From assembly GCF_026212465.1 (NCBI RefSeq), contig NC_080058.1, forward strand, positions 20,832,872-20,896,871: a DNA stretch of 64,000 nucleotides, read 5' to 3'. The notes beneath the pieces were generated by a model that ran no database searches, had not been told where the DNA came from, and was given only the letters and a program-made list of their open reading frames with translations. The DNA comes from Amaranthus tricolor. Its lineage: Eukaryota; Streptophyta; Magnoliopsida; Caryophyllales; Amaranthaceae. Made by a program: the position numbers and the translations under genes. Shown one piece after another: positions 14,875 to 64,000 of this stretch. Position 1 is the first letter of the stretch; each line of letters begins with the position of its first letter.

Positions 14875-15000
14875 GTGAGAGTTCCTAAAACTAAAGCTTG
14901 TAGTTGACGATTTGGTGAGAGTTCCCTAATCTAAGCTACACCCAAACAAGTGAGTGAGTGTTCCTCCTTGTTATATCCTCAAGTTTAGGGTGAGAGTTCC
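14875..15000 (+). repeat. Four short direct repeats in the LTR leader
   Basis: GTGAGAGTTCC at 14875, 14915 and 14990, with the variant GTGAGTGTTCC at 14954, spaced 40, 39 and 36 bp. They lie downstream of the TATA box, so they should be in the transcript leader. The same set is at about 19157-19282 in the 3' LTR. Function unknown. Confidence 0.75.
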
Positions 15001-15102
15001 CCTAACTAATCTGATCATACTAAAAAAATATACCAAAAAAACGTGTGACCCCTTTAACTTATCATTTTGTAACAAGGTTTCTCGTCTTGTTTACACATCA
15101 TT

Positions 15103-15120
15103 TGGCGCGCCAGGTAGGGG
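15103..15120 (+). other. Putative tRNA primer-binding site
   Basis: TGGCGCGCCAGGTAGGGG begins two bases after the LTR end. The initial TGG pairs with the universal tRNA 3' CCA, and the following GC-rich stretch contrasts with its surroundings. It does not match the common plant initiator-Met site (TGGTATCAGAGC). I could not assign the tRNA. Confidence 0.7.
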
Positions 15121-15164
15121 GAGTTTTTCCATACACTTCCAAAGGGGTCGAATACCTACATATC

Positions 15165-18524: not shown

Positions 18525-19382
18525 AGGGTGTCGGTTACAAGGAATTAATTCCAAACAGTTTTGGAATACGAAGGGGCATGTTTTAAGGAGATTTAAAGCT
18601 GGTTTTTAATCTCATTTAAAGCTGCAGTTTTGGAATTCAAAGGGGCATGTTTTTAGGAGTATTTATGGCTGAATATTAACCTTTTTAAGTGGGGGTTACT
18701 AGGCATTATTGTAGGAGTAAAATGCAATAATAAAGAAGCTTAAATGGAGGAGTAAATGGGAGTTACCAGGCAAATGAATGGGCTGTTTTGGATGTTACTT
18801 TGCACACTTGAAGGAGCCATGTGAAGAGTTTAATTGCTGGCCATTTCTTCCCTAGTTTTAATCTTTGTTTAATTAGTCTTAAGTGTGTGTAATGGAGATT
18901 AATGTGGACATTGATTAGCCACTTAATTCTCTTTTATTTTGTTGTCTTTTTATTTTCTTTTGTGAATTTATTTAGGCAAGTGAAAGGTTGTAATTATTTA
19001 ATGTAAGAATGCTATATATAGCATACTTTGATGAATGAAAAACACATCCAGAAATTTGCCAAAAAACTTGTGTTTTGTTTATTGAACTTGACTTGTGTTT
19101 AGTCAATTTTAATTGTCCAAATTTGAGTGTTCCAAATTTGAAGAGTTAGAGTTTTAGTGAGAGTTCCTAAAACTAAAGCTTGTAGTTGACGATTTGGTGA
19201 GAGTTCCCTAATCTAAGCTACACCCAAACAAGTGAGTGAGTGTTCCTCCTTGTTATATCCTCAAGTTTAGGGTGAGAGTTCCCCTAACTAATCTGATCAT
19301 ACTAAAAAAATATACCAAAAAAACGTGTGACCCCTTTAACTTATCATTTTGTAACAAGGTTTCTCGTCTTGTTTACACATCA
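18353..19382 (+). repeat. 3' LTR (1030 bp)
   Basis: Second copy of the LTR. It includes the end of the polyprotein frame (stop at 18522-18524) and the same TATA motif (19013) and leader repeats as the 5' copy. The single difference I found is G at 18516 against A at 14234. Confidence 0.96.
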
Positions 19383-39971: not shown

Positions 39972-42810
39972 GATTAAAATCGAAAACAATAGTCATATGC
40001 TTTAAATTACGTGCTAAGTTGCGTTTTTGAGGTGTTTTTAAGGGTTTTAACAATTTTGCGCATAAAGTATTTCAAAATTGGTTTGTTTGCCACCATACTT
40101 GGCACACAATACTATTCGGTATAGCTTATTGTGTTGAAATGGATAGAATGGAAACCAATAGTCATATGCTTGAAATTAGGTGCTAAGTTTTTCTCGCATA
40201 AAGTGGTTCAATCTTTGTTTTTTTTACAAAACTTATATATTGTGTTAAAATGGTTAAAATCGAGAATAATAGTTATATGCTTGAAATTAGGTGCTATGTT
40301 GCATTTTTAAGCGTTTTGGGCACCTTCTCGCAAAAAGTGGTTGAAGCTTGGTTTATTTGCAACGAAACTTGTCACACAAAACTTATTTGTATTTCTTATT
40401 ATGTTGAAATGGTTAGAATATAAAACAATAGTCATATGTTGTAAATTACGAGCTAAGTTGTATTTTTGACGTTTTATTTAAGCGTTTTTGGCACTTTCTT
40501 GCAAAAAGTGGTTGAAACTGGGTTTGTTTGCAACGAAACTTGGCACACTAAAATAGTTGGTATATCTTATTGTGTCGAAATGGTTAGAATCGAAAATAAT
40601 AGTCATACGCATGAAATTACGTGCTAAGTTATGTTTTTGAGGTTTTTTTAAGCGTTTTTCGCACTTTCTCGCATAGAGTAGTTCAAACTTGGTTTTTTTG
40701 CCACGAAACATGACACACAATACTATTTGGTATATGTTATTGTGTTGAAACGGTTAGAATCAAAAGCAATAGTCATATGTTTGAAATTACGTCCTAAGTT
40801 GCATTTTTTAGATTTTTTAAGCGTTTTTTGAACTTTCTTGTATGAAATGGTTGAAATTTGGTTTTTTAACCACGAAATATGGCACACAACACTATTTGGT
40901 ATATATTATTGTAATGAAATTCTTATAATCGAAAACAATAGTCGTATGCTTGAAATTACGTGCTAAGTTGCGATATTGAAGCTTTTTTAATCGTTTTTGA
41001 CACTTTCTTGCAAAAAGTGGTTGAAACTTTGTTTGTTTGCCATGAAACTCTGCATAAAACAGTATTTGGTATTTGTTAATTTGTTGAAATGGTTAGAATC
41101 AAAATCAATAGTTATATGCTTGAAATTTGCGTTTTTGAGGTTTCATTAAGAGTTTTTGGCACTTTCTTGCAAAAGGTTGTTGAAACTTGTTTTGTTTGCA
41201 ACGTAACTTGGCACACAACACTATTTTGTTTCTCTTAATTGTGTTGAAATGGTTAGAATCAAAAACAATAGTCATATATTTAGAATTACGTGCTAAGTAG
41301 CGTTTTTTTATGTTTTTTTAAGCGTTTTGGGCACTTTTTCGCAAAAAGTGGTTAAAACATGGTTTGTTTGCAACGAAACTTGGCACATAACACTATTTGG
41401 TATATGTTATTGTGTTGAAATGGTTAGAATAAAAAAAAAAGTCATATGCTTGAAATTTACGTTTTTGAGGTATTTTTTAAGCATTTTTGGCACTTTCCCG
41501 CATGAAGTTGTTCAAACATCGTTTGTTTGCCACGAAACATTTCACACAACATTATTTGGTATAGATTATTGTGTTGAAATTGTTATAATAGAAAACAATA
41601 GTCATATGCTTGAAATTACGTGCTAAGTTGCGTGTTTGAAGTTTTTTTAATCGTTTTTAGCACTTTCTCGTAAAAAGTGGTTGGAACTTGGTTTGTTTGC
41701 CACGAAACATGGCACACAACACTATTTGGTGTATATTACTGTGTTGAACCAGTCAGAATCGAAAACAATAGTCATATGCTTGAAATTTCTGTATTTGAAG
41801 TTTTTTTAAGCGTGTATGGCACTTTCTCGCAAAAGGAGGTTGAAATTTTTAGAATCGAAAAAAATAGTCATACGATTCATATTACGTGCTAAGTTGCATT
41901 TCTGAGGTTTTTTAAAGTGTTTTTGGCACTTTTTTGCAATAAGTGGTTGAAACATGGTTAGTTTGTAATGAAACTTGGCATAAAACACTATTTGGTATTT
42001 CTTATTGTGTTGAAATGGTTAGAATCGAAAACAATAGTTATATGCTTGAAAACAATAATTTTTTTAAGCGGTTTTTGCACTTTCTCGCATAAAGTGGTTC
42101 AAACTTGGTTTGTTTGCCACGAAACATGGCACACAACACTATTTGGTATAGATTATTGTGTTGAAACTGTTAGAATCAAAAACAATAGGCATACGCTTGA
42201 AATTACGTGCTAAGTTGCGTTTTTGAGGTTTTTTAAGCGTGTTTAGCACTTTCTCATAAAAAGTGGTTGAACTTGGTTTGTTTGCAATGAAACATGGCAC
42301 AAAATACTATTTGGAATATATTATTGTGTTGAAATGGTTAGAATCGAAAACAATAGTCATATAATTGAAATCTCGCATAAAGTGGTTAAAACTTGTTTTC
42401 TTTGCCACGAAACCTTTCACACAACACTATTTGGTATATTTTATTATATTGAATGGGTTAGAACCAAAAAAAATAGTCATATGCTTGAAAACACGTGCTA
42501 ATTTGCGTTTTTGAGATTTTTTTCAGCGTTTTTGGCACTTTCTCGCAAAAAGTGGTTGAAATTTGGTTTGTTTGCCACGAAACGTATATATTATTGTGTT
42601 AAAGTGGTTAGAATCCAAAAAAATATTTATATGCTTGAAATTACGAGCTACGTTGCGTTTTTGAGACTTTTTTAAAACGTTGTTGGTACTTTCTCGCATA
42701 AAGTGGTTCAAACTTGGTTTCTTTGCCACGAAACATGACACACAACACTATTTCATATATTTTACTGTGTTGAAACGGTTAGAATTAAAAACAATAGTCG
42801 TATGCTTCAA
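39972..42810. repeat. Higher-order repeat block E, like block A
   Basis: Repeats the order of markers of block A: GATTAAAATCGAAAAC at 39972, GCGCATAAAGTATTTC, the truncated TTTCTCGCATAAAG monomer, the GCGATATTGAAGC monomer at 40970, the GCGTGTTTGAAG monomer at 41631 and the GAGCTACGTTGCG monomer at 42645. It lies 36 kb from block A, so the 3.5-kb unit spans the window with other variants between. Confidence 0.6.
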
Positions 42811-45800
42811 ATTACGTGCTAAGTTGCATTTTTGAGGTTTTATAAGTGTTTTTGGCACTTTCTCGTAAGAAGTGGTTGAAAGTTGTTTTGTTTGCCACGA
42901 AAATTGGCACACAACACTCTTTGATATATGTTATTGTGTTGAAATGTTTAGAATTGAATACAATAGTCATATGCTTAAAATTACGTGTTAAGTTTCGTTT
43001 TATGGTTTTTTTAAGCGTTTTTGGCACTTTCTCGTAAATTGGTTTGTTTGCCTCGGAAATTGGCACACAACACTATTTGGTATATGTTATTAGATTGAAT
43101 AGGTATGAATCGAAAAAAATAGTCATATTCTTGAAATACGTGCAAAGTTGCATTTTTAAGGTTTTTTTAAGCGATTTTGGCACTTTCTCGCATAAAGCTG
43201 TTCAAAATTAGTTTGTTTGCCACTAAACTTGGCATACAATATGTTATTTTGAGACATGCATAGAATCGAAACGAATAGTCATATGCTTTAAATTACGTTC
43301 TGTGTTGGGTTTTTGAGGGTTTTTAAGCGTTTTTATCACTTTCTCGCAAAAAGTGGTTTTTTGATACAAAACATATATACTATTGTGTGGAAATGGTTAG
43401 AATTGAAAAATATAGTCATATCCTAAAAATTGCGTGTTAAGCTGCGTTTTTTAGGTTTTTTTAAGCGTTTTGGGCGCTTTCTCTCAAAAAGTGGTTGAAA
43501 CTTGGTTTATTTGCCCGGAAACTTGACACACAACACTATTTTGTATTTGTTATTGTGTTGAAACGATCAGAATTAAAAAAATATTCATATGCTTGAAATT
43601 AATTGCTAAGTTGCGTTTTTGAGGTTTTTTAAACGTTTTTGAACCTTCTCGTAAAAAGTGGTTGAAACTTGGTATGTTTGCCACCGAAATTGGCACACGA
43701 AGCTATTTGGTATATGTTAACAGGTTGAATAGGTATGAATCGAAAAAAATAGTCATATGTTTGAAATACGTGCAAAGTTGCATTTTTGAGGTTTTTTTAA
43801 GCGATTTTGGCACTTTCTCGCAAAAAGCTGTTCAAAATTGGTTTGTTTGCCACCAAACTTGGCATACAATTTGTTATTTTGTTGACATGAATATGATAGA
43901 ATCGAAAAGAATAGTCATATGCATGAAATTACGTTCTACGTTGGGTTTTTGAGGGTTTTTAAGTGTTTTTATCACTTTCTCGCAAAAAGTGGTTTTTTGA
44001 CACAAAATATATATACTATTGTGTTGAAATAGTCAAAATCGAAAAATATAGTCATATGCTAAAAATTACGTGCTAAGTTGCGTTTTTTAGGTTTTTTTAA
44101 GCGTTTTGGGCACTTTCTCTCAAAAAGTGGTTGAAACTTGGTTTATTTGCCGGGAAACTTCACACACAACACTATTTTGTATTTGTTATTGTGTTTAAAT
44201 GGTCAGAATAAAAAAAAATAGTCATATGCTTGAAATTATTTGCTAAGTTGCGTTTTTGAGGTTTTTTAAACGTTTTTGAACCTTCTCGTAAAAAGTGGTT
44301 GAAACTTGGTTTGTTTGCCACGAAAATTGGCACACGAAGCTATTTGGTATATTTTATTTTGGTGAAATGGTTAGAATAAAAAAAAATAGTTATATACTTT
44401 AAATTAAGTGCTAAGTTGCGATTTTTAGGTTTTTTTAAGCGTTTTGGGCGCTTTCTCGCAGAACGTGGTTGAAACTTAGTTTGTTTGCAATGAAATTGGC
44501 ACACCACACTATTTGGTATATATTATTGTGTATTTGGAATCAAAAACATTACTCATATGTTTGAAATTACGTTCTATGTTGTGTTTTTGAGGTTAATTTA
44601 AGCATTTTTGAAGTTTCTCGTAAAAAGTGGGTGAAACTTCATTTGTTTGACACGAAAATTGGCAAACGTAACGAATTGGTATAAATTATTGTGTTGAAAT
44701 GGTTAACGTTGAAAAAAAATAGTCTTATGCTTTAAATGACCTACAAAATTGCGTTTTTTAGGTTTTTTTAAGCGTTTTAGGCACTTTCTCGCAAAAAGTG
44801 GTTTAAATTTGGTTTGTTTGCCACGAAACTTGGCACACAAAACTATTTCGTATATGTTATTGTGTTGAAATGGTTAGAATCGAAAACAATAGTCATATGC
44901 TTGAAATTACGAGCTAAGTTGCGTTTTTGAGGTTTTTTTCGGCGTTTTTGGTACCTTCTTGCAAAAACAAGTTGAAACTTGGTTTGTTTGCTACGAAACA
45001 TGGCACACAACTCTATTTGGTATATCTTACTGTGTTGAAATGATTAGAATCAAAAAGAATAGACATATGCTTAAAATTACGTGCTAAGTGGTGTTTTCGA
45101 ATTTTTTTTAAGCGTTTTTTGCACTTTCTCTAATAAAGTGGTTCAAACTTGGTTTGTTTGCCACGACACTTGGCACACAACAATATGTTTTATATATTTT
45201 TGGGTTGAAATGGTTAGAATTGAAAAAAATAGTCATATGCTTGAAATTACATGCTAAGTAGCATTATTTAGGTTTTTTTAAACGTTTTGGGCACTTTCTC
45301 GCAAAAAGTGGTTAAAACATGGTTTTTTTGTCAGGAAACATGCCACTCAACACTATTTGATATATGTTATTGTTTAAATGGTTAAAATCAAAAACAATAG
45401 TCATATGCCTGAAATTACATGCTAAGTTGTGTTTTTGAGGTTTTTTTAAGCGTTTTAGGCACTTTCTCGCATAAAGTAGTTCAATCTTGGTTTGTTTGCC
45501 AGGAAACATGGCACGCTATACTATTTGGTATATGTTATTGACGTGAAATAGTTAGAATTGAAAACAATAGTCATATGCTTGAAATTCCGTGCTAAGATGC
45601 ATTTTTGATGTTTTTTAAGCATTTTTGAACTTTCTTGTAAAAAGTTGTTGAAACATTATTTTTTTGCCAAGAAAATTGGCACACAAAGCTGTTTGGTATA
45701 TTTAATTGTGTGGAAATGTTTAGAATTAAAAAAATAGTCATCTTCTTGAAATTACATTCTAAATTGAGTTTTTTAGGTTTTGTAAAACGTTTTTGGCACT

Positions 45801-46322
45801 TTCTTGCAAAAAGTAGTTGAAACTAGGTTTGTTTGCGACGAAACTTGGCACAGAACACTATTTGGTACATGTTATTGTGTTGAAATTACGTGCTATGTTG
45901 TGTTTTTGAGGTTTTTTTAAGCGTTTTTCGCACTTTCTCACATAGAGTGGTTCAAACTTGGTTTGTTTGCCACGAAACATGACACACAACACTATTTGGT
46001 ATATCTTATTGTGTTGAAATTATGCCCTAAGTTGCGTTTCTTAGATTTTTTTAAGCGTTTTTTGAACTTTCTCGTAAGAAATAGTTTAAATTTGGTTTGT
46101 TTGCCACGAAACATGGCACACCACACTATTTGGTATATATTATTGTAATGAAATGGTAACAATCGAAAACAATAGTCATATGCTCTAAATTACATGCTAA
46201 GTTGCGATATTGAGCCTTTTTAATCGTTTTTGACACTTTCTTGCAAAAAGTGGTTGAAACTTGGTTTGTTGGCAATGTAAATTTGCACACAACACTATTT
46301 GGTTTCTCTTATTGTGTTGAAA
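42264..46322. repeat. 4.06-kb tandem duplication, copy 1
   Basis: From TGGTTGAACTTGGTTTGTTT onward this segment matches 46323-50383 base by base apart from about nine scattered single-base differences and one 2-bp difference in an A-run (near 45728 and 49789). Offset is 4059 bp, becoming 4061 after the A-run. It spans about 24 monomers. Confidence 0.93.
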
Positions 46323-49300
46323 TGGTTGAACTTGGTTTGTTTGCAATGAAACATGGCACAAAATACTATTTGGAATATATTATTGTGTTGAAATGGTTAG
46401 AATCGAAAACAATAGTCATATAATTGAAATCTCGCATAAAGTGGTTAAAACTTGTTTTCTTTGCCACGAAACCTTGCACACAACACTATTTGGTATATTT
46501 TATTATATTGAATGGGTTAGAACCAAAAAAAATAGTCATATGCTTGAAAACACGTGCTAATTTGCGTTTTTGAGATTTTTTTCAGCATTTTTGGCACTTT
46601 CTCGCAAAAAGTGGTTGAAATTTGGTTTGTTTGCCACGAAACGTATATATTATTGTGTTAAAGTGGTTAGAATCCAAAAAAATATTTATATGCTTGAAAT
46701 TACGAGCTACGTTGCGTTTTTGAGACTTTTTTAAAACGTTGTTGGTACTTTCTCGCATAAAGTGGTTCAAACTTGGTTTCTTTGCCACGAAACATGACAC
46801 ACAACACTATTTCATATATTTTACTGTGTTGAAACGGTTAGAATTAAAAACAATAGTCGTATGCTTCAAATTACGTGCTAAGTTGCATTTTTGAGGTTTT
46901 ATAAGTGTTTTTGGCACTTTCTCGTAAGAAGTGGTTGAAAGTTGTTTTGTTTGCCACGAAAATTGGCACACAACACTCTTTGATATATGTTATTGTGTTG
47001 AAATGTTTAGAATTGAATACAATAGTCATATGCTTAAAATTACGTGTTAAGTTTCGTTTTATGGTTTTTTTAAGCGTTTTTGGCACTTTCTCGTAAATTG
47101 GTTTGTTTGCCTCGGAAATTGGCACACAACACTATTTGGTATATGTTATTAGATTGAATAGGTATGAATCGAAAAAAATAGTCATATTCTTGAAATACGT
47201 GCAAAGTTGCATTTTTAAGGTTTTTTTAAGCGATTTTGGCACTTTCTCGCATAAAGCTGTTCAAAATTAGTTTGTTTGCCACTAAACTTGGCATACAATA
47301 TGTTATTTTGAGACATGCATAGAATCGAAACGAATAGTCATATGCTTTAAATTACGTTCTGTGTTGGGTTTTTGAGGGTTTTTAAGCGTTTTTATCACTT
47401 TCTCGCAAAAAGTGGTTTTTTGATACAAAACATATATACTATTGTGTGGAAATGGTTAGAATTGAAAAATATAGTCATATCCTAAAAATTGCGTGTTAAG
47501 CTGCGTTTTTTAGGTTTTTTTAAGCGTTTTGGGCGCTTTCTCTCAAAAAGTGGTTGAAACTTGGTTTATTTGCCCGGAAACTTGACACACAACACTATTT
47601 TGTATTTGTTATTGTGTTGAAACGATCAGAATTAAAAAAATATTCATATGCTTGAAATTAATTGCTAAGTTGCGTTTTTGAGGTTTTTTAAACGTTTTTG
47701 AACCTTCTCGTAAAAAGTGGTTGAAACTTGGTATGTTTGCCACCGAAATTGGCACACGAAGCTATTTGGTATATGTTAATAGGTTGAATAGGTATGAATC
47801 GAAAAAAATAGTCATATGTTTGAAATACGTGCAAAGTTGCATTTTTGAGGTTTTTTTAAGCGATTTTGGCACTTTCTCGTAAAAAGCTGTTCAAAATTGG
47901 TTTGTTTGCCACCAAACTTGGCATACAATTTGTTATTTTGTTGACATGAATATGATAGAATCGAAAAGAATAGTCATATGCATGAAATTACGTTCTACGT
48001 TGGGTTTTTGAGGGTTTTTAAGTGTTTTTATCAATTTCTCGCAAAAAGTGGTTTTTTGACACAAAATATATATACTATTGTGTTGAAATAGTCAAAATCG
48101 AAAAATATAGTCATATGCTAAAAATTACGTGTTAAGTTGCGTTTTTTAGGTTTTTTTAAGCGTTTTGGGCACTTTCTCTCAAAAAGTGGTTGAAACTTGG
48201 TTTATTTGCCGGGAAACTTCACACACAACACTATTTTGTATTTGTTATTGTGTTTAAATGGTCAGAATAAAAAAAAATAGTCATATGCTTGAAATTATTT
48301 GCTAAGTTGCGTTTTTGAGGTTTTTTAAACGTTTTTGAACCTTCTCGTAAAAAGTGGTTGAAACTTGGTTTGTTTGCCACGAAAATTGGCACACGAAGCT
48401 ATTTGGTATATTTTATTTTGGTGAAATGGTTAGAATAAAAAAAAATAGTTATATACTTTAAATTAAGTGCTAAGTTGCGATTTTTAGGTTTTTTTAAGCG
48501 TTTTGGGCGCTTTCTCGCAGAACGTGGTTGAAACTTAGTTTGTTTGCAATGAAATTGGCACACCACACTATTTGGTATATATTATTGTGTATTTGGAATC
48601 AAAAACATTACTCATATGTTTGAAATTACGTTCTATGTTGTGTTTTTGAGGTTAATTTAAGCATTTTTGAAGTTTCTCGTAAAAAGTGGGTGAAACTTCA
48701 TTTGTTTGACACGAAAATTGGCAAACGTAACGAATTGGTATAAATTATTGTGTTGAAATGGTTAACGTTGAAAAAAAATAGTCTTATGCTTTAAATGACC
48801 TACAAAATTGCGTTTTTTAGGTTTTTTTAAGCGTTTTAGGCACTTTCTCGCAAAAAGTGGTTTAAATTTGGTTTGTTTGCCACGAAACTTGGCACACAAA
48901 ACTATTTCGTATATGTTATTGTGTTGAAATGGTTAGAATCGAAAACAATAGTCATATGCTTGAAATTACGAGCTAAGTTGCGTTTTTGAGGTTTTTTTCG
49001 GCGTTTTTGGTACCTTCTTGCAAAAACAAGTTGAAACTTGGTTTGTTTGCTACGAAACATGGCACACAACTCTATTTGGTATATCTTACTGTGTTGAAAT
49101 GATTAGAATCAAAAAGAATAGACATATGCTTAAAATTACGTGCTAAGTGGTGTTTTCGAATTTTTTTTAAGCGTTTTTTGCACTTTCTCTAATAAAGTGG
49201 TTCAAACTTGGTTTGTTTGCCACGACACTTGGCACACAACAATATGTTTTATATATTTTTGGGTTGAAATGGTTAGAATTGAAAAAAATAGTCATATGCT

Positions 49301-50383
49301 TGAAATTACATGCTAAGTAGCATTATTTAGGTTTTTTTAAACGTTTTGGGCACTTTCTCGCAAAAAGTGGTTAAAACATGGTTTTTTTGTCAGGAAACAT
49401 GCCACTCAACACTATTTGATATATGTTATTGTTTAAATGGTTAAAATCAAAAACAATAGTCATATGCCTGAAATTACATGCTAAGTTGTGTTTTTGAGGT
49501 TTTTTTAAGCGTTTTAGGCACTTTCTCGCATAAAGTAGTTCAATCTTGGTTTGTTTGCCAGGAAACATGGCACGCTATACTATTTGGTATATGTTATTGA
49601 CGTGAAATAGTTAGAATCGAAAACAATAGTCATATGCTTGAAATTCCGTGCTAAGATGCATTTTTGATGTTTTTTAAGCATTTTTGAACTTTCTTGTAAA
49701 AAGTTGTTGAAACATTATTTTTTTGCCAAGAAAATTGGCACACAAAGCTGTTTGGTATATTTAATTGTGTGGAAATGTTTAGAATTAAAAAAAAATAGTC
49801 ATCTTCTTGAAATTACATTCTAAATTGAGTTTTTTAGGTTTTGTAAAACGTTTTTGGCACTTTCTTGCAAAAAGTAGTTGAAACTAGGTTTGTTTGCGAC
49901 GAAACTTGGGACAGAACACTATTTGGTACATGTTATTGTGTTGAAATTACGTGCTATGTTGTGTTTTTGAGGTTTTTTTAAGCGTTTTTCGCACTTTCTC
50001 ACATAGAGTGGTTCAAACTTGGTTTGTTTGCCACGAAACATGACACACAACACTATTTGGTATATCTTATTGTGTTGAAATTATGCCCTAAGTTGCGTTT
50101 CTTAGATTTTTTTAAGCGTTTTTTGAACTTTCTCGTAAGAAATAGTTTAAATTTGGTTTGTTTGCCACGAAACATGGCACACCACACTATTTGGTATATA
50201 TTATTGTAATGAAATGGTAACAATCGAAAACAATAGTCATATGCTCTAAATTACATGCTAAGTTGCGATATTGAGCCTTTTTAATCGTTTTTGACACTTT
50301 CTTGCAAAAAGTGGTTGAAACTTGGTTTGTTGGCAATGTAAATTTGCACACAACACTATTTGGTTTCTCTTATTGTGTTGAAA
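46323..50383. repeat. 4.06-kb tandem duplication, copy 2
   Basis: Direct, adjacent copy of 42264-46322. The junction at 46316-46330 joins GTGTTGAAATGGTTG to AACTTGG, while the right end of copy 2 (50384) continues with the normal monomer (TGGTTAGAATC). This shows an unequal exchange inside the GGTTGAA/GGTTAGAA part of the monomer. Confidence 0.93.
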
Positions 50384-53273: not shown

Positions 53274-53612
53274 CACTAGTGGAAAAAAACGTATTTGCTA
53301 CTTATCATTTGATGCGGTTTTTGCATATTCGCAGGAATAAATAGGAAAATGAATTAGAAAAAAAAAACAATTAATTGCTGCGGTTTTCCATGGGACCGCA
53401 GCAAATAATCCTTCACAAATATTAATTGCTGTGGTTTTCCATGGGACCACAGCAAATAACCCTTCACAAATACATTAATTGCTCCGGTTTTGCTTGAGCC
53501 GCAGCAAATAACCCTTCACAAATACTTTAATTGCTCTGGTTTAGTTTGAACCGCAGCAACTAACCTTTCACAAATACTTTAATTGCTCCGGTTTAGTTTG
53601 AACCGCAGCAAA
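53274..53612 (+). repeat. Left terminal repeat and subterminal palindromic units of the outer CACTA
   Basis: After the terminal repeat come five units spaced about 52 bp (about 53371, 53423, 53476, 53527 and 53578). Each is a dyad: TTGCTGCGG, a short loop, then CCGCAGCAA, and neighbouring units are joined by ACCCTTCACAAATACTTTAA-like linkers. Subterminal arrays are the usual binding sites for the TNPA-type protein of CACTA elements. In unit 2 both arms changed together (GCTGTGG with CCACAGC). Confidence 0.85.
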
Positions 53613-54708
53613 TGACCGTTGGACATATATTATTTTAATTAAAACCCGCCAGTTTCTTTTTTCACAAAACCCTTCACAAATACGTAGATACACTTTGCTT
53701 TGTTCTCAAACGAACCCATTGAAAAAACGCTTCATCTTCATCTTCATTTGCTTCGTTCCTCTTCTTCATCTTCACAAACGTAAGATTAAGCATCAAGATT
53801 GTATTCATTTCTTGTGTTCATCTTCATTTTCACAGACCCAGAAATCAATTTTCGAATCTAAAGGTAAATCCTTACTGCTGTTCTTGTTCATCATCAAACT
53901 TAAAACTTCGAATTTTCATAAACCCCCTACTATTCTTCTACTGTGTTCTTGTTCATCATCATTCTTCAAAACCGTTTGAAACCAAAGGCATTTGGTCTTT
54001 TTCATCTTCAAAACTTACGAATTAAGGTATTATTTCTCTTTTTAATTTCAATACATACGAAAAACCTTTAAAATGTGGTTTGTTAATCTACTGCATATGA
54101 AAAATCTTCAAAACTTAAAGGTCTTGTTCATCTAATACTGCTTTAAAAATCTACTGCATACGAATTATTATTATATTTCTCTTTTTAATGTGCTTTGCAT
54201 ACGAATTATTCTTCTACTGCATACTAATTATTCTTCTACTACATACGAATTATGTAAATTAGTGCTAATTAATTTTTTTTCTTTGTAGATTATTACATAA
54301 CCCACAAAATCAAGGTAATTTCTATTTGTTTTGTAAATTTGCAAGTTTATATTTTTATTGTTTCACTTGTAATTTAGTAATTTAGTTAAAAATGTGGTTT
54401 GTTAAGTAATTATTTGCATATTTAGTAATTATTTGTGAATGTGGTTTATGTGTGGTTTATTAATTATTTGCATATTTTGTTAAAAATGTGGTTTGTTGTT
54501 ATACTTGTCTTTAATTATTAGAATCAGAATACTTATATTTCTAAGGTTAAATGATTTAATTTTATTATTTATATTTTGAATGTTATATTTCTAAGGTTAT
54601 ACAATGTTAATTATTCAAAGTATATATTTTTTGGGTTAAATATGTTTGTTATAAATAAGTATATATGTTTAAAATTTGTGTATTAATTTTGTTTTGAATC
54701 AATTAAAA
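53613..54708 (+). other. Non-coding 5' region of the outer CACTA (leader and introns)
   Basis: About 1.1 kb, very A+T-rich, no supported coding sequence. CATATATTATTTTA at about 53624 is a possible TATA region. A small exon-like block, 54289-54314 (preceded by TTTCTTTGTAG and followed by GTAATTTC), is matched in the nested element by 57872-57909 between ATTGTATAG and GTATTTTT, which suggests a spliced leader. A 94-residue open frame at 53695-53979 is low complexity and is not supported. Confidence 0.55.
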
Positions 54709-57175
54709 GATCGTTCTTGGATGTATGGAAGCATTGAATCGTCGGAATTTATTGATGGCGTATGAGAATTTTGTAGTATTGCGGTTGAACATCAAGTTAG
54801 GACGGGGGGAGTTGGTTTTTATTGCCCATGTGTCAGTTGTGGCAATGTATCAAAGGTAGATAGTGTTCATATCCTTAGGGAGCACATACTTAGACGTGGG
54901 TTTAGGCCTCAATATCATGTTTGGGTTTGGCATGGTGAGTAGGGAGTTTACAAAGAGAAAAGTGTTGTTGAGGACGTCAATAATGTGGCCGATGTCAATG
55001 AGGATGTAGTAGATCATGTTGATGGGTATGAGACAGATGAAGAGAATGTCGATGAGGATGTGGATCGTGTTGATGAGATGATGGAGGGAGTCGAGGATGA
55101 GTTAGAAAAACTTCCTCGTGTTTTTGACAGAGGCTTCTCAAAAGCCTTTGTACCCTGGATGTACAAAGTTCACCAAACTAACAGCAGTGTTGACAATTTT
55201 CAACATTAAGTCAAAGTTCAATTGGAGTGACGCTAGTTTCACAATGTTATTAGAAGCGTTCGGTGAGATGCTTCCCGAGGGAAATGAACTTCCAAAGTCG
55301 ACATATTATGCCAAAAAGCTCATGTGTCCTTTCGGCTTAGAGTACTAGAAGATTCATGGGTGTCCGAATGATTGTGTGTTGTATCAGAATGAAAATGAGA
55401 ACTTAGAAGAGTGTCCTAGGTGTGGGTTATCGCGCTACAAGCGTAAAGGGGCTCGGGATGCTAAAGGGCCCCCAGCTAAGGTATTGTGGTATCTTTCAAT
55501 AATACCTAGATTCAAGCGCTTGTTTTCTATAAAGAAAGATGCGTTAAATTTGAGGTAGCATGCAGATAGGGTGAAGAAAGGTCACTTGCTCACACATCCA
55601 TCTGATTATCCGGAGTGGAAGAGTATTGATAGGTTGCATAAGGCTTTTGGGGATGAGGTTCGTAATTTAAGGCTCGGATTATGTACGGATGGAATGAACC
55701 CATTCGGCAATCTTAGTTCTCAACATAGTACTTGGCCGGTACTTTCAGTGATCTATAATTTGCCACCTTGGTTGTGTATGAAGCGTAAGTACATTATGCT
55801 TTCGCTTCTTATCTTAGGTCCTAAACAACCTGGCAATGACATAAATGTATATCTTGCACCTCTCGTTGAGGATTTGAGAAAGATGTGGGATGAAGGCGTT
55901 TCAGTGTTTGATGCATATGCTAATGAGGAGTTCACCTTACGTGCAATGCTTTTATGCACCGTTAATGATTTTCCGGCATATGGCAACTTATCGGGGTATA
56001 AGAACAAAGGGAAGAAAGCATGCCCAATATGTATCGGTGACATGGAATCCACGTGGATTCCTAAGTGCAAACACGTATTTATGCACCATCGAAAGTTCCT
56101 CCCACGAGACCACCAATATCGTAAGAAGAAGAAGTTGTTCAACGGGGAGGTTGATGACCGTGTAGCTCGTCGACCGTTGACCGGTTATGAGGTTTATGAA
56201 TAGGTTAAGGGAGTTGAGACTGTATTTGGTAAAACAGGGCAAGTGCAAGGGGGTGAAGATCGATTATGGAAAAAAGAATCAATCTTTTGGAAGCTTCCAT
56301 ATTGGAGAGATCTACAGGTTAGGCATTATCTTGACGTTATGCATATAGAGAAAAATGTATGCGATGCCATACTCGGGACTCTCATGAACATTCCGGGTAA
56401 GACAAAGGATGTGAGGGCTGTGCGAGATTAGTTTGAATGTAAGGGTCTTCGTCCGGAGTTGTGGACACATGTTAAGGTGAGTAAGAAAAGAAATAGAGCT
56501 GATGAAGTTGGTGGCAGTAAGAAGAAGATGAGTAATGACAAAGTTTATTTGCCTTCAGCTTGCTACACATTGTCCAAAGCAGAGAAGCGGACATTTTGTG
56601 AGTGTTTGTATGTCATTAAGGTTACGTCTGGGTACTCATCCAACATGAAAATATTTGTGAGCCTAAATGGTGAGCTGAAGTTGGGAAGCATGAAATCTCA
56701 CGATTGCCATGTAATGACGCAAGTGTTCTTACCAATTGCAATCCGTGGAATACTGCCAAAACATGTGAGATATGCCATTACCGAGCTATGTTCGTTCTTC
56801 AACACAATTTGTAGTAAAGTTCTTGATCCCTCTAAACTTGATGCACTTCAACTCGACATGATTGTAACTTTATGCAAGTTTGAGATGAATTTTCCACCTT
56901 CTTTGTTTGACATAATAGTTCATCTTATTGTCCATCTCTTTTTTGAGATCAAGCTTTTGGGTCCAGTTTTTTTAAGGTGGTGTTATCCTTTTGAAAGACA
57001 CATGGGTGTTTTACAAAACAAGGTGAGGAATCCAGCACAACCCCAGGGGAGTATGATTCAAGGCACTGTGAGCGATGAGATTAGTAACTTTATAGCCGAG
57101 TATTTGGCTATGGCAAAGCCTATTGGACTTCCCACCTCTAGACATGAAGGAAGGCTTGAGGGAAAAGGAACAATT

Positions 57176-57460
57176 CACTAGTAGAAAAAAACGTATTTGC
57201 TGCTAATCATTTGCTGCGGTTTATGTATATACGCAGCAATAAGTATGAAAAAGAATTAGAAAAAAAAAAAAGAAAACATTAATTGCTGCGGTTTTGGGCA
57301 TTAACCGCAGCAAATACATATGAGCAGCTTCAATTGCTGCGGTTTTGTTTATGCCCGCAGCAAAAAAGTACCTTTTAATTGCTCCGGTTCTTCATTACCC
57401 ACAGCAAATAACTCACTTCTTCACTTGATTGCTGCGGTTAATGCCTTGCCCGCAGCAATT
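57176..57460 (+). repeat. Left terminal and subterminal palindromes of the nested CACTA
   Basis: Units with TTGCTGCGG...CCGCAGCAA arms at about 57209, 57281, 57332, 57378 and 57427, with variable loops. Some arms are mismatched (GCTCCGG against CCACAGC). Followed by AAACCCGCCA, as in the outer element at 53642. Confidence 0.85.
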
Positions 57461-58788
57461 GTAGTTTCAAAAACCCGCCATGTTAACTTTAAAACATAAA
57501 CCCACGCACGAAACTGCTTTCATTGTTTAACATATTATAAGACTGTTGCACTTCTTCATTCACTCATTACTGAAACTGCCGGTCTTCTTGTTCGATTACT
57601 GTCTTCAATCTTTCTTCTTTGATCATCATTCTTGCTCTTCTTATTGCTTTTCTTCATCATAAACTTCTTTAACCTGCGCTGTATACACATTGTTGTTGCT
57701 CTTCAAACCCACGAAATTTGGACTTATAATTAGTTCTTGCTCTTCTTCAAGGTATAATTTTTTAAAGCTTATTAGTTCTCAAACCCATTATTGTTCAAGC
57801 TTCATTAATTATGTACGTTTAGGGTACGGTGCTTAGTTTTTTTTATACTAATTTTTATTTTCATTGTATAGGTTATACACTAACCCACCAAAACACACGA
57901 CAAATTAAGGTATTTTTTTCATTTTGATTTGTAAATTAGGTTTAAATTTGTCATACTTTATAAATGTGTATGTTGTTATTGTTTTTAAGTTGAAAATTTA
58001 TCATATATATCATGTTTTGTTATATTTTTAAGTAATTTCTTCATTTCATTTATGATTTTGTATGTAGTTGTGGTTTTTAAGTTTTAAATTTATCATAATT
58101 TTTTTTATAGTTTGTAAGTTAGGTTTAATTAGGGTTAATTAATGTTAAAGAATTGGGTACTAAACCTGGTCAATCTCCTATTTGCCATTTCTTTCCTGAT
58201 GATAATCTTCTTTGGGTCCCACTAAGGAATGGGAGGGGAGTTTTTTTGTTAAGGTTGTTAATTATTGGATAATGAATGATTAATGATATGATCTTGTGGT
58301 TTATGTTATAAATGAATAAATATTGTGTTGGTGTTCAACTTTCAAAATCAATCACCGTAGAATTACCGGTATTTATATGTGTAAGATAAGTTTGTAATGA
58401 ATGTATGTAGGCTGGTGCCTTGTGAAATAAAATTATGTTGTTATGTTTTGTTAATATTGTTGTTATTATCATCGATCAAATTAGAACTTTTGTTGTAGAT
58501 TCTCAAATTATCCTGTATACAATGGCCTATTTAGCATTAGGTATTTTCATAGGATCGGAGTGGTTGTGTTAACCATCTAAATAGTTGTAGTTATATATAG
58601 TTGTTGTAACATTTGAGAAATTAATAAACATCATTTGGACAGTTTAAAAAATATTGTGTTATTATTTGGGCTAATTAGTGTTAAATGAATGATTATTACT
58701 TAATTTTATGGTTAGTTAGAGTTCGTTAAGCATATATGTTTTAAAGTTGTGTATTAATTTTGTTTTGAATCAATTAATCACACAAATT
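57461..58788 (+). other. Non-coding 5' region of the nested CACTA
   Basis: About 1.3 kb, A+T-rich, no supported coding sequence. It contains the small exon-like block 57872-57909 between AG and GT splice signals, comparable to the one in the outer element. A stretch near 58170-58240 is less A+T-rich but has no frame I can interpret. Confidence 0.5.
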
Positions 58789-59016
58789 ATGATGACAAAC
58801 GATCGTTCTTGGATGTATGGAAGCATTGAATCGTCGGAATTTATTGATGGTGTATTAGAATTTTGTAGTATTGCGGTTGAACATCAAGTTAGGACGGGGG
58901 GAGTTGGTTGTTATTTCCTATGTGTCAGTTGTGGCAATTTATCAAAGGTAGATAGTGTTGATATCCTTAGGGAGCACATACTTCGACGTGGGTTTAGGCC
59001 TCAATTTCGCACGTAA
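58789..59016 (+). pseudogene. N-terminal fragment of TNP2 transposase (Transpos_assoc domain) in the nested element
   Basis: Two adjacent ATGs (58789, 58792) open a frame with DRSWMYG, a zinc-binding-like CVSCGN stretch and ILREHILRRGFRPQ, the pattern of the Transpos_assoc domain. It aligns base for base with the outer copy at 54709-54914 but has no stop where the outer copy has one (TTA here, TGA at 54763). At about 59001 it passes into satellite sequence and the frame ends at 59016. The remaining ~1000 residues of a transposase are absent. A short protein of about 76 residues could still be translated. Confidence 0.8.
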
Positions 59017-59687
59017 AGTAGCTCAAACTTGGTTTGTTAGGCACGAAACTTGGCACACAACACTATTTGGCATATATTATTGTGTTGAAATGGTCAGAAT
59101 TGAAAATAATAGTCATATGCTAGAAATTAGGTGTTAAGTTGCGAGTTTTAGGGTTTTTAAGCGTTTTTGTCAATTTCGCGCGTAAAGTAGCTCAAACTTG
59201 GTTTGTTATGCACGAAACTTGACACACAACACTATTTGGCATATATTATTGTGTTGAAATGGTTAGAATTGAAAATAATAGTCATATGCTAGAAATTAGG
59301 TGTTAAGTTGTGATTTTAAGGGTTTTTTAGCGTTTTTGTCAATTTCGCGCGTAAAGTAGCTTAAATTTGGTTTGTTATGCACGAAACTTGGCACACAACA
59401 CTATTTGGCATATATTATTGTGTTGAAATGGTTAGAAATGAAAATAATAGTCATATCCTAGAAATTAGGTGTTAAGTTGCGATTTTAAGAGTTTTTAAGC
59501 GTTTTTGTCAATTTCGCGCATAAAGTAGCTTAAACTTGGTTTGTTTTTCACGAAACTTGGCACACAACACTATTTGGTATATATTATTGTGTAGAACTAG
59601 AAGTTGTTAGAATTGAAAATCATAGTCATATTCTAGAATTTACGTGTTAAGTTGCGATTTTATGCGTTTTTAACCGTTTTTGACACT
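59001..59687 (+). repeat. Four satellite monomers inside the nested CACTA
   Basis: TCAATTTCGC recurs at 59001, 59170, 59339 and 59508, giving three units of exactly 169 bp and a last one of about 174 bp. Each contains the boxes of the main satellite: AAACTTGGTTTGTT, CACGAAACTTGGCACACAAC, ACTATTTGGCATATATTATT, GTTGAAATGGTTAGAATTGA and ATAGTCATATGCTAGAAATT. The units are much more like one another than neighbouring monomers in the big array are. The left junction shares TCAATT with the transposase exon (CCTCAATATC in the outer copy). The right junction leads into intron sequence before a protease exon. Confidence 0.95.
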
Positions 59688-59706
59688 AACATCTATTTTC
59701 TCTTAG

Positions 59707-60013
59707 TGCTTTCAACAACCTTCTTCTTCCGTTGAATGCGGCTACTACGCGCTGAAGTACATGGAAGATATTATAAAATCCGTCAAGGAGTTTGGAGTCG
59801 AAAATATAGATGCCGTAAGTATTTGTTAGTACGTTCTTAAATAATTCTTATTGGTAATCGTCTAATGTTTAATTTATATTAATCGTCTTTTGATTTTATA
59901 TTATATTATAGGTTTTAAAGGACATTCCGAGGGAAAAACGCCCTTTGAGAAGTGGAGAGATGCGCGAATTAAAAGACAAGATTGCCGCGTATCTTGCTAA
60001 TTTTTGTCCTTGA
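59707..60013 (+). pseudogene. C-terminal exons of a Ulp1-type (C48) cysteine protease, fragment
   Basis: Exon 59707-59814 follows TTCTCTTAG and ends before GTAAGT; exon 59912-60013 follows TATTATAG and ends in TGA. Both are in phase 0 and free of stops. The first carries the QQPSSSVECGYYALKYM motif, where the glutamine and the cysteine of ECGYY match the oxyanion and nucleophile residues of Ulp1/SUMO-protease-like domains found in many plant CACTA and MULE elements. The histidine and aspartate of the catalytic triad would lie in upstream exons that are deleted here. Alone it cannot be an active protease. It could serve as the 3' end of a spliced transcript. Confidence 0.8.
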
Positions 60014-60048
60014 TAAAGTGTAAATAATATAGATTATTTTTAGGACTT

Positions 60049-60051
<3 letters not shown>

Positions 60052-60080
<29 letters not shown>
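60052..60080. repeat. (TA)n microsatellite
   Basis: About fourteen TA repeats followed by GTACGTACAT, downstream of the protease stop codon in the nested element. Confidence 0.95.
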
Positions 60081-60084
<4 letters not shown>

Positions 60085-60232
60085 GTACATATCATATTAT
60101 ATTATCGAGAGTTTTTTATTGCAAAGAGATTATTGGTGATTATCATTGGATTATTATTGGATTAATCATTGTTATTTTACATTATTATTGGATTATTATT
60201 AGAATAAAACGAAAAAACAAAAAAACATATCT

Positions 60233-60537
60233 ATTTGCTGCGGTCAACCCCAAAAACCGCAGCAAATAAGTGCCATTTTTTGCTGCGGTTATGGGGGCTG
60301 ACCGCAGCAAATAATACCACTTATTTGCTGCGGTTATGGAGGCTGACCGCAGCAAATAATACCACTTATTTGCTGCGGTTTTCGGGACTGACTGCAGCAA
60401 ATAATACCCTTTTTTGGTGCGGTTTTTAACCGCATCATTTAAAATAGGCTATTTGCTGCTATCACTATTGCTTGGGGCCAAAACCGCAGCAAGTAATGGC
60501 CAAAAAACCGCAGCAAATGAGGTTTTTTCCACTAGTG
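60233..60537 (+). repeat. Right subterminal palindromes and terminal repeat of the nested CACTA
   Basis: Four near-identical dyads at about 60233-60267, 60279-60312, 60324-60357 and 60368-60402 (TTTGCTGCGG, 11-14-base loop, CCGCAGCAAAT), a shorter GGTGCGGTTTTTAACCGCATC dyad at about 60416, then further CCGCAGCAA arms and the terminal TTTTTTCCACTAGTG. Unit spacing is about 45 bp. Confidence 0.88.
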
Positions 60538-61380
60538 ATTGGCTCCAAATCTGTCACACCTCCTCGAGAAAGCCTTCTACAAGCACACTTGTATGTGTTG
60601 CATCATATTCTGGAATTTCATCCTTTTTTTAGTGAGCATTTTGATATGTTGCGCGTAAAATATCCTTCTAAAGGGGATAGGGCATTGATGCAGTTGCATA
60701 ACAAGACGTTTATTAATTGGTTTCATAATCGAATAATATGCGAACAACTCAAGGGTGTATCCGAAATTGTTAAGTTGTTAGCTTTTGGTCTGCGTGAAGA
60801 TGTCAACAAATATGAAGGTTACGATGTAAATGGCTTCACATTTTGGACTAAGGGTCAAGACAAGAAGTCATCGTATCTACAGAATAGAGGGATTTCTATT
60901 TTGGCGTCATCTACATTTTACGCGAGTGCGAAGGATCAAGCGCCGGTTGATGCTAAATTGGTATACTACGGGCGGGTACATGAAATATGGGAGCTTGACT
61001 ACTCTACTTTCAATATTGGTCTTTTCAAATGTAAGTGGGTAGATAATAATCGACGATGCATAAAAAATGACGACCCTTGTGGATTCACTCTTGTAGACTT
61101 AGCTCGTTTGCGTGATAGTAAGGAGCCATTCATACTAGCCACACAAGCCAAGCAAGTATTCTACATTGTAGACCCGTCTGATAAAAAATGTTCTGTTGTT
61201 GTATCGGGAAAAAGAAGCATCCTTGGTATAGGTGATGTTGAGGATGAGGAAGAATATGAAGCTTTTGAAGACTCCCCTCCCTTTATCAATCAAAAATTAG
61301 TGGATCAAGATGATGTAGATGTTGGTTATATGCATGTAGATCACACGGAAGGAATACATTTGATTTAAGTGATTAACAAG

Positions 61381-61559
61381 GTATGAATTTAAAGCTTTTT
61401 AAAGTTTTTTTGGCACTTGGTTTGTTTTGCATGAAACTTTGCACATAACACTATTTGTTATATATTATTGTGTTGAACATATTAGAATTGTAAATCATAG
61501 TCATATTCTTAATATTACTTAGCTTATGTTCTAATATATTTCTATTCCTACTCTTTCAG
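61381..61559 (+). repeat. Diverged satellite monomer forming most of an intron of the outer CACTA
   Basis: Flanked by AAG/GTATGA and by CTACTCTTTCAG, so it is a plausible 179-bp intron between the end of the transposase frame (61368) and the next gene's ATG (61573). From about 61394 to 61528 it follows the satellite consensus in order: GTTTTTTTGGCAC, TTGGTTTGTTTTGCATGAAAC, TTTGCACATAACACTATTTG, TATATATTATTGTGTTGAAC, TTAGAATTG, CATAGTCATATTCTT, ATTACTTAGCT. About 25 bp of the consensus (TTTCTCGCAAAAAGTGG region) is missing between GGCAC and TTGG. Confidence 0.8.
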
Positions 61560-61572
61560 ATACTGATATACA

Positions 61573-64000
61573 ATGCATCTATTCAGAGACGAAATTGTCC
61601 CCGAGATTGAGACCTCGGATAATGAGCATCGTAGTTATGACAGTGAAGAGGACCAAATTGTGAGATACGAGCGTATGGCTGAAGACGCTCCACCAATTGA
61701 AAATGATTTTAAGACTGAAGACGCCCCACCAATGGATGCTCCCACTACCAGTAAGAAAAGAAAAGGGCGAGGTCCTACGAAAAACCTCAAAGTCACAGAA
61801 CCCATGCATTTGGAATACAATGCATTGGGTCAACCCTGCGGAAAATGGCGTAGGCAATATGGAAAACAAGTGGGCCTATGTATCCGCAAGATTTCCATAT
61901 TCCACGCATGGAACAAGGTTCCAGAGGGTTTGAAGAACTCTCTATGGAATGATACTGTGGTAAGCAACTTTACTATTTTTACTCATTTAGTTTCATTTTA
62001 AAATTAATTTAATTGACAGTAATAAATATGAATTTTTTTGTAAAATCTTTTCCACATCGAAAGCGATGAGGACAAGAAGAATGTGTTTCTTTCAGCTGTT
62101 GCTGAAAGATTTAGAGATTTCAAATCCAAGCTAGTAACTGGCTGGATTACGAGGAGATGTGCCCGTATGACCAAAAAGGTCAAAATGGGAAACGAAGGTG
62201 GAGAGCAATCACCTTCGAAGATGCCCTACGAAATATGGGGTCACATATCGAGGAGGGATTGGGAGGCCTTTGTTGCCAAAAGAACAACTCCCATAGAATT
62301 TGTAAGTATTTCATATTATATTATAGTTTACCAATTTGAATTTATTTCTTTTGATTCAGTCATTAAATTAATACATGACATTCGATTTCTATTGATTAAT
62401 TAGGAAAAGCGTGGTAAAGCTTCTGATTCTGCAAGCAAAAGGAAGTTTTACAATCGCTTGGGCCAGAAAACGTACGATGAGGTCCGAAAAGAGTGGGTGG
62501 ATGCGGGTTTATACCCCAATCAAAGTTCATCCACGCCCTCATCTACGACTACCTCCGCATCCGTGAGTACTCCTGCTGGAGATCGGGTGCGTGATTGGTA
62601 TTGCGGGCTTCATTCACGAGATACAAGTGGTAAATTTACCATTAATGATCCGGGAACGAAGAAGGTTGCTGATGCTGTGGTGAGTTTTGAAATTATTAAG
62701 TACATTCTTTATTTGTTTTGTATTCTTTGGCTTTGATGTACTTATACTAATTGCTATATATGTCACTTTTTATTTGAACAGATGGGCTGGAAGGAAAAAG
62801 AAGCTACGGGGGAGTTCACCTCAAGAGGCAATGTTGACGCATTGCATATGGTCTTAGGGAAAGACCACAGTGGGCGGGTAGTCGAAAAACGAGGCGTCCG
62901 CGTGGGGTTACAGAAGGCATTCGGCAAAGAGTTTGTTGCTACTCAATCCCGAACGGCGCTGCGGGATGAAGTAGCAACCCTCTGAGCGGAGATTACGAAG
63001 GACGTTCTCGCCAAGCTGGCCGCCGTGTTGCAGAAGATGGGAGCACCCATTGTTAACTTGGCAAACCTGATTGTCAAGGATCAGGAAAGTCAACATGGGG
63101 ATCCTAATGCTTCGGTCGAGCCACCACCCGAGCCCATTACCCCCGTAGCACCCCACCCCATTACTAATACCCCTGAAGGGGAAAACCCCACACCGGAGAA
63201 CATAAACTCCGTTGCTCAAAATCCGGAGCCAACTACGGAGCCAGTGTTACAGGTATATAGTTTTTAAATATATAAGCACTTATTAATTTAAATTGCAACG
63301 CGTTTTAATATTTTATTATGATGCTTATTATACTAAACGACACAATTTTCAGGAGGCGACTCCTTGTTCTCTTTTGCTGCCTCAGTTAGGTGTTGCTAAT
63401 GATGGCGACTTAACTGAGGTTGCATATGGTGTGGTCCAGCCAAACAAAGAGGGCCAAACAGTGCATTCAATGCCTGTTACAAGTGGCCACATCAGTGTAG
63501 CCGTGGAAACTATTGTAAAGGGGTTTGAAGATTTCTCACTCCCGGTTCTAATGCCAACATGAAGCCTTGAGAAACTATCAGACGCCCTAGGTAGTTTCGT
63601 CACATGGCTATATGCTTGGGTCCGATTCACTAACATGGTAAGAATCATTTGTACCTTATTTATTTTTATTTTTTTAATTGCATGCATACACTAATTTAAT
63701 TGTATAAATTGAAATAGCAAAAGAGTCCAAAGGGATCTTGGAGAAAGGTCGGTTCCTCAGCAAAGGTGTCGACTAGTTCAAAGTCGATGCCAAGCACTCC
63801 AATTTTGACTGATGAGGAGCTAAAAGATCTCTCTGAAGATAGCAAATGGCTGCACACTTGTGCATCTCGCATAAGTGAGGAGGACCCAATCATTCTGAAC
63901 CTACTGAAGGAGCAATACTGCTTTTTAGAGAGCTCATTTGTAATTATTGGTCCTAGTGACATCGATCGGGCAATTTTTTTGAGAGGAGAGATGCTGAACG
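61573..64000 (+). pseudogene. Second CACTA gene, Transposase_24-like, multi-exon, truncated by window end
   Basis: Proposed exons, all in phase 0: 61573-61959, about 62044-62301, 62404-62679, 62782-63252, 63353-63637 and 63718 to beyond 64000. Donors are GTAAGC, GTAAGT, GTGAGT, GTATAT and GTAAGA; acceptors are TTAG, ACAG, TCAG and ATAG. The acceptor of the second exon is not visible (an in-frame TAA stands at 62041). The protein has an acidic N-terminus, then KKRKGRGPTKN and YNALGQPCGKWRRQYG, then FRDFKSKL, KRKFYNRLGQKTYDEVRKEW and a proline-rich stretch, the pattern of the plant Ptta/En/Spm Transposase_24 family; such genes often end in a Ulp1 protease domain, which would lie past the window. 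Stops at 62983 (TGA) and 63560 (TGA) break it. Product inferred to bind element ends. Confidence 0.75.

Follow-up and report, generated by a model that had tools for sequence, protein, structure and literature searches.

Satellite monomers as the body of candidate introns in CACTA transposons of Amaranthus tricolor

How satellites originate, and how a satellite family persists in a genus although its sequence and place keep changing, is an old question, which a single locus of Amaranthus tricolor raises in concrete form. The window, a stretch of 64,000 nucleotides (NC_080058.1, 20,832,872 to 20,896,871), consists largely of a satellite array, and four monomers of the same kind of satellite lie inside a CACTA transposon that is itself nested in another (Table 1). 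The original prediction was that these monomers occupy the place of a deleted coding region, that either the transposon captured them while resident in the array or a repeat expanding within it seeded the ~48 kb of satellite, and that in both cases it can carry a ready-made seed to new places. Where, then, do the four monomers come from, and what is their relation to the array?

Table 1. Features of the window and the reference copy of the intron spacer
Feature	Position	Strand	Remarks
Satellite array (169/170-bp unit, AmC4/AmT1-type family)	1-53273	+	~300 profile matches
Ty3-like LTR retrotransposon within array	14071-19382		sole interruption of the array
Outer CACTA element, inserted directly in array	53274-64000, extends past window end	+	5′ end CACTAGTGGAAAAAAAC at 53274
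Nested CACTA element, 3362 bp	57176-60537	+	complete ends, internally deleted; within outer element's tnp2 gene
tnp2 5′-exon remnant in nested element	58797-59005 (end approximate)	+	95% to outer element's 54705-54916
Four satellite monomers, remainder of INT2	59002-59150, 59155-59319, 59325-59488, 59494-59661	+	
INT2 3′ end CTAACATCTATTTTCTCTTAG	59686-59706	+	branch-point-like CTAAC, pyrimidine tract, AG acceptor
Ulp1-type protease C-terminal exons of nested element	59707-60013	+	Cys exon CFQQ..SVECGYYALKYM, small intron, last exon
INT1, intron-like segment GT..AG, 179 nt	61381-61559	+	between outer element's tnp2 stop and second ORF
INT2 spacer, reference copy	L030 7503-7824 (reoriented)		

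The array at 1-53273 served to build the satellite profile, and its opposite strand yields two weak matches only (11.8 bits). The LTR retrotransposon is the sole gap of more than 60 bp that the profile search leaves before 53273, and no element remnants were found between monomers of the array in such gaps. This retrotransposon is young, with LTRs of 1031 bp that are 99.9% alike and a target site duplication (TSD) of GATTA. Its long ORF matches gag, RNase H and integrase profiles and, weakly, that of aspartyl protease; RVT_1 was not found in this ORF at E 0.1, and the element is possibly non-autonomous. Elsewhere in the array, a stretch of 4.04 kb is present as a tandem duplicate (42260-46300 and 46320-50361, offset ~4.06 kb) with 99.7% identity, as against a mean identity of 81% between array monomers; this duplication is a recent large unequal exchange.

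Terminal repeats, a 3-bp TSD (nested element) and a tnp2 gene with DUF4218 and DUF4216 (outer element) place the two transposons in the CACTA (En/Spm) group. The outer tnp2 gene matches the Pfam families Transposase_21 (4.3e-85), DUF4218 (1.6e-31) and DUF4216 (1.2e-19), and the nested element is bounded by CACTA terminal inverted repeats, CACTAGTAGAAAAAA ... TTTTTTCCACTAGTG, and by a TSD of ATT at 57173-57175 and 60538-60540. Relatives were fetched from the A. tricolor assembly (519,850,330 bases, 45 contigs) with the protease exon, rather than the monomers, as the criterion of similarity, and comprise the best 20 of the 39 non-window matches listed. Two of them have matching TSDs (L045, ATT/ATT; L046, GGG/GGG), and the flanks of a third, L041, mismatch (TAC/GAG), its 5′ end possibly belonging to another element; the end patterns used for this check did not find both element ends in the other 17 fetched loci.

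That four regular monomers lie inside a CACTA element is borne out by two methods. TRF reports positions 59001-59682 with a period of 169, 4.0 copies and 92% matches, and each of the four scores 131-143 bits on the + strand against the array profile, with 7.1 bits as the maximum among 50 random sequences from an order-1 model of window positions 60001-64000. Their register-to-register spacing is 169, 169 and ~169-175. A replacement of deleted coding sequence can be ruled out, however: the monomers are part of an intron 5′ of the protease exon, here called INT2, that survived the deletion. Compared with full-length members of the family, the nested copy has lost everything from within the first tnp2 exon to within INT2, so that it keeps no tnp2 except a fragment of the 5′ exon, and its coding deletion ends inside the first monomer, with a TCAAT microhomology at 59001-59005 (read by eye). 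The deletion junction lies inside a monomer, again by eye, in 8 of 21 loci (the window, L029, L032, L033, L036, L039, L040 and L048). The nested copy is a deletion derivative with its breakpoint in a monomer, and the last four units were kept. Two things had been overlooked in the first description of the locus: a fifth, single monomer in the outer element (61410-61518, 66.8 bits), and the apparent role of monomers as the body of two predicted introns.

The larger of these introns is INT2. All 20 fetched relatives have satellite monomers directly 5′ of the protease Cys exon, as do the nested copy and a locus on contig C1 (L049), which brings the total to 22 loci, and among the relatives the site is always the same, the intron before the protease's last catalytic (Cys) exon. 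Full-length members are ordered tnp2, INT1, second ORF, INT2 monomer block, protease Cys exon and 3′ end. The protease assignment is based on Pfam Peptidase_C48 in the equivalent exons of L030, where the exons flanking INT2, joined as they stand, match this family at 4.9e-10. A complete INT2 begins GTACACAAATT and ends CTAACATCTATTTTCTCTTAG, or close variants of these; the donor GT is conserved in 12 of the 12 loci that retain the upstream exon, the branch-point-like CTAAC in 21 of 22 and the acceptor AG in 20 of 22, the exceptions being L047, which is without the acceptor AG, and L046, which is without the acceptor region. The non-satellite part of INT2, apart from a spacer described below, is a stub of ~11 nt on the donor side and another of ~21 nt on the acceptor side, and in L041 and L043 both ends are present with no spacer. 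An intron of ~32 nt is probably too short for splicing in a plant. Because a spacer-free INT2 would be left with only these ~32 nt if its satellite were removed, the monomer is best seen as the body of INT2, which, as judged from its borders and the exons that it separates, is a predicted spliceosomal intron that the transcript would lose by splicing.

In 14 of the 20 fetched loci, INT2 also contains at least one copy of a non-coding spacer of ~320 bp (279-326 bp, and 396 in L047), and L035 has one further gap of 1.5 kb. The 17 aligned spacers are 93-98% alike to that of L030. A duplicated protease exon was considered as its origin and rejected, since no forward frame of the L030 and L047 copies is free of stops; the source of the spacer was not found. 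Spacer and monomers are co-amplified, and the resulting composite units measure 539-1045 bp, with 779 bp on C1. The unit of 1045 bp occurs in L038 (C7:2885000-2894999), where it is repeated at least seven times; the L038 element is itself inserted in another satellite array (C7:2.84-3.01 Mb).

The smaller segment, INT1, is one diverged monomer. Its alignment covers the satellite unit from one end to the other save for an internal gap of ~23 nt, with the strand unchanged and the register almost so. With the tnp2 stop on one side and the second ORF on the other, INT1 is not spanned by any reading frame, and its GT..AG borders make it intron-like. Ten loci, namely nine of those fetched plus the outer element of the window, have a complete INT1, and in L041 and L046 it is truncated on the 5′ side; no match to the INT1 region was found in the other nine fetched loci. 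In L030, between tnp2 exon 1 and the 3′ end, no sequence other than INT1 and INT2 exceeds 1.7 bits.

The presence of one unit in two introns bears on the question of whether the satellite came first, an ancestor of these CACTA elements having gained monomers in two introns by insertion or satellite-templated repair during residence in an array and its copies having inherited them. Elements do reside in satellite arrays, as the outer element, L038 and L044 demonstrate, and a CACTA element of Chenopodium quinoa that holds an array of a 171-bp satDNA has been interpreted as a case of capture in the published description (PMC8978399). Such a history would, however, need two captures, or one capture and a transfer, that agree in strand and almost in register, for which a rough estimate of the random chance of the second event is 0.5 x 31/169, or ~0.09, and each event would have to replace an intron body yet spare the splice ends. 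Moreover, at eight sites INT1 has a state in common with the edge monomer that is missing from the window array, against four sites at which INT1 sides with the array and two at which it sides with neither. We consider an ancient capture of this kind less likely than not, while giving it more credit than any other alternative to the reading preferred below.

Monomers of the intron type are widespread in the genome. The 687-base block around the four monomers is matched over at least 662 bases at 93-100% at 40 places or more, the window itself and 39 others at 93-96% (40 scored of 5745 first-look candidates), and the 40 scored places are spread over 16 of the contigs C1-C17. A pattern for the protease Cys exon has 217 exact matches in the genome (control, 0), and the CACTA family may number up to about as many members; an intron-type 21-mer has 1393 occurrences (control, 0). 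Profile matches are confined to the element in all but two of the 20 fetched stretches, L038 and L044. A 28-base piece of the unit had 0 matches in IMG/VR. The proposal that the transposon carries a ready-made seed to new places is therefore upheld by the 40 scored places on 16 contigs and by the monomers of all 20 relatives. These data also leave almost no room for a one-off capture of four monomers by the nested copy from the surrounding array, or for a misassembly: the nested element does sit within an element within the array, but 39 other places match at 93-96%, every fetched relative carries monomers, and the four monomers fall outside the local array clade, whereas a singular event had been expected to leave other copies without monomers and to place these four inside one array clade.

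INT2 varies greatly in size. The 22 loci, among which L038 continues beyond the sequence fetched and L049 is covered in part, hold 2-33 full monomers each, with a median of five; at two places INT2 is of single-unit length, as judged from length only. Interior monomers are as alike within a locus (0.921, 800 pairs) as between loci (0.925, 8380 pairs), and the multi-unit intron therefore appears to predate the spread of the copies, with local changes following later. Twelve protease exons lie on C1, and for 10 of them the intron-type 21-mer is present on the same strand no more than 1.5 kb upstream; those at 18610251 and 36388311 are without it. Of the 95 matches to the 21-mer on this contig, 46 form a single array (16350167-16381203), mostly in steps of 779 bp, and at 16.350 Mb this array ends in the INT2 terminus and protease exon seen elsewhere (90% identity). 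Thus, one INT2 on C1 seems to have grown to ~31 kb with the protease exon at its end, as suggested by 2 kb read at that one end and by 21-mer spacing, from which the continuity of the ~31 kb is taken.

The window's array stands apart from all of this. Its 277 kept monomers form one clade (0.903) separate from the intron monomers, none of the 277 is of the intron type, and the consensus sequences of the array and of INT2 differ at 13% of sites. IQ-TREE likewise groups the 28 array monomers sampled in a random set of 93 rows as one clade, with support of 100/98 and a bootstrap that had not quite settled. The array as parent of the nested monomers is unsupported on both the clade and the consensus, and by sequence comparison neither the seeding of the window's array by the nested copy nor the origin of that copy's monomers from it finds support. 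Of the original prediction, then, the mobile monomer seeds stood, and capture from, or seeding of, this particular array by this copy did not.

Relatives of the window's array and of the introns also occur elsewhere, in arrays that may be free satellites. An array-type 22-mer has 105 exact matches; the 100 given in the list are on C6, C9, C10 and C12, and a looser search with 681 array bases (15 scored of 10152 candidates) found relatives, mostly at 71-82%, also on C2, C7, C8, C13, C14 and C16. Two short array-type arrays on C2 were examined as possible old intron remnants and set aside, since the C2 matches listed for the protease exon include none within 100 kb of either. On C12, array-type matches at 21.709-21.795 and 21.826-21.892 Mb run first on the + and then on the - strand, with many steps of ~2.74 kb, which may reflect a mirrored higher-order repeat. 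Other arrays, sampled as 12 monomers from four stretches on C7, C11 and C13, have a consensus that is closer to the introns (94%) than to the window array (89%), and in the tree some satellites from C11 and C13 are intermingled with two L048 monomers and two further intron monomers. This interleaving would suit an ancient capture, as would the AU tests, which reject neither a single clade of all satellites (p 0.34) nor a single clade of all intron monomers (p 0.41), nor one of intron monomers together with AmC4 (p 0.39). It would equally suit a two-way traffic in which intron arrays and free satellites repeatedly swap units and the transposon acts as a shuttle within a common pool, a scheme with which the insertion of elements into arrays and the FastTree position of AmC4 among intron monomers would also agree; the absence of intron-type monomers from the 277 kept, and of element remnants between the window array's monomers (the LTR element being the sole gap above 60 bp), makes us regard it as quite unlikely.

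AmC4 provides a comparison from outside the species. This satDNA of A. cruentus, with a unit of 169 bp, has the largest share (1.0%) among the satDNAs tabulated for that species, and its FISH clusters are described as mostly pericentromeric in A. cruentus and A. hypochondriacus (PMC11678860). AmT1 of A. tricolor is reported to be 91% alike to AmC4 (PMC12651990), and the family goes by the names AmC4, AmH9 and AmH51 in A. cruentus and A. hypochondriacus and AmT1 and AmT129 in A. tricolor (PMC11678860, PMC12651990). By its sequence and its unit of 169, the repeat studied here belongs to the same family, the AmC4 probe being 91% alike to the intron and 85% to the consensus of the window array. 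AmC4 scores 137.8 bits against the window profile. It is most alike to the INT2 consensus, with 91.1% identity, followed by the other arrays (89.8%), the edge monomer (89.2%), the window array (85.4%) and INT1 (79.8%). At the 21 sites at which INT2 and the window array differ, AmC4 goes with INT2 at 14, with the array at five and with neither at two. FastTree places it among the intron monomers with a support of 0.824; in IQ-TREE the rows at the shortest path distance from it are intron monomers, and no well-supported group includes it. With INT1 as outgroup, 11 array/INT2 differing sites are comparable, six of which go with INT2 and five with the array. Common descent of intron monomers and free satellites is what these likenesses argue for; its direction is not proven by them.

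We propose, with a probability that we put at roughly 0.58, that the satellite unit is the body of a CACTA intron, that this intron seeded the satellites and that transposition scatters the seeds. INT2 would consist of a donor stub, one to dozens of 169-bp monomers, often a spacer, and a stub with branch point and acceptor, and, with the whole block removed by splicing, the number of units would be free to vary. Unequal exchange or replication slippage between units would shrink or enlarge the block, sometimes together with the spacer, to as much as ~31 kb; transposition would scatter monomer seeds over the genome, and an array that outgrew or lost its element would become a free satellite. 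Elements, including the outer one of the window, also land back in satellite arrays. We favor the intron as the source because the same unit recurs in two introns of one element with a common strand and nearly a common register, because the unit is the body of both and every fetched copy has it in INT2, because the graded series of sizes ends in an array of ~31 kb still tied to an exon, and because capture would need two events, each replacing an intron body. Counted against this reading are the lack of resolution in the tree, the capture precedent from quinoa and the landing of elements in satellite DNA, as well as the distance of the window array from all intron monomers and the interleaving of the C11 and C13 satellites. 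To these are added the ~23 nt of the unit missing from INT1, the spacer in 14 of 20 introns, the acceptor losses of L047 and L046, and the two of 12 C1 exons that are without the 21-mer.

Transposon-internal tandem repeats are already known as possible seeds of satellites and have been reviewed as such (PMC12628747); in that review, the word CACTA is absent and the sole mention of introns relates to retrogenes. In contrast, the open-licence PMC literature, at the level of titles and abstract openings, offered no case of a satellite unit that forms the body of transposon introns. AmC4 and AmT1 themselves are presented, in the relevant sections of their descriptions, as a cytogenetic marker, without a link to CACTA elements or introns (PMC11678860, PMC12651990). 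The former report also notes an A. tricolor ncRNA, LOC130799021 (XR_009039170.1), exon 3 of which includes AmC4-like repeats (PMC11678860), and this ncRNA might be a transcript of such a CACTA element. A close parallel comes from the same plant family: the C. quinoa element carries 32.5 copies of its 171-bp satDNA near its 3′ end, but that satDNA is different in sequence, by eye, and in the published account is interpreted as captured and, in the text consulted, not placed in an intron (PMC8978399). A tnp2 fragment of the Chenopodium element Jozin and the satellite CficCl-61-40 represent another proposed derivation of a satellite from CACTA, although there the unit is of 40 bp and comes from the conserved domain of tnp2 rather than from a 169-bp intron (PMC7320549). 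Ogre elements of Lathyrus contain short internal tandem arrays, dispersed with the transposon and occasionally expanded to long arrays, and raise the same two-scenario question as the CACTA intron satellite; unlike the latter, they are Class I LTR retrotransposons with repeats downstream of the coding region, and no spliced intron is described for them in the text consulted (PMC7004042). The same source cites a primate satellite derived from a single-copy intronic sequence (Valeri et al. 2018, cited in PMC7004042) and, separately, repeats of LTR elements.

A different parallel is offered by introners, in which one sequence is the body of introns at non-homologous sites. As in introners, one sequence here forms the body of more than one intron; unlike introners, it does so in two introns only, both within a single transposon.

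A satellite already published and named is thus tied to a precise candidate source, an intron of a transposon, with stages that range from about one unit to ~31 kb. Splicing, if it takes place, would provide a simple reason why a gene-bearing transposon tolerates an unstable array, and amaranth genomes and RNA data already published would allow a direct test of the intron hypothesis. More tentatively, and as an idea that we hold to be possible rather than probable, the AmC4/AmT1 family of Amaranthus may be a retired transposon intron. The CACTA intron would then serve as a persistent, splice-shielded and mobile library, able to range from one unit to tens of kilobases without harm to its gene, from which each species could re-derive its own dominant satellite, and the unit itself would be a portable intron body that came to fill two unrelated introns.
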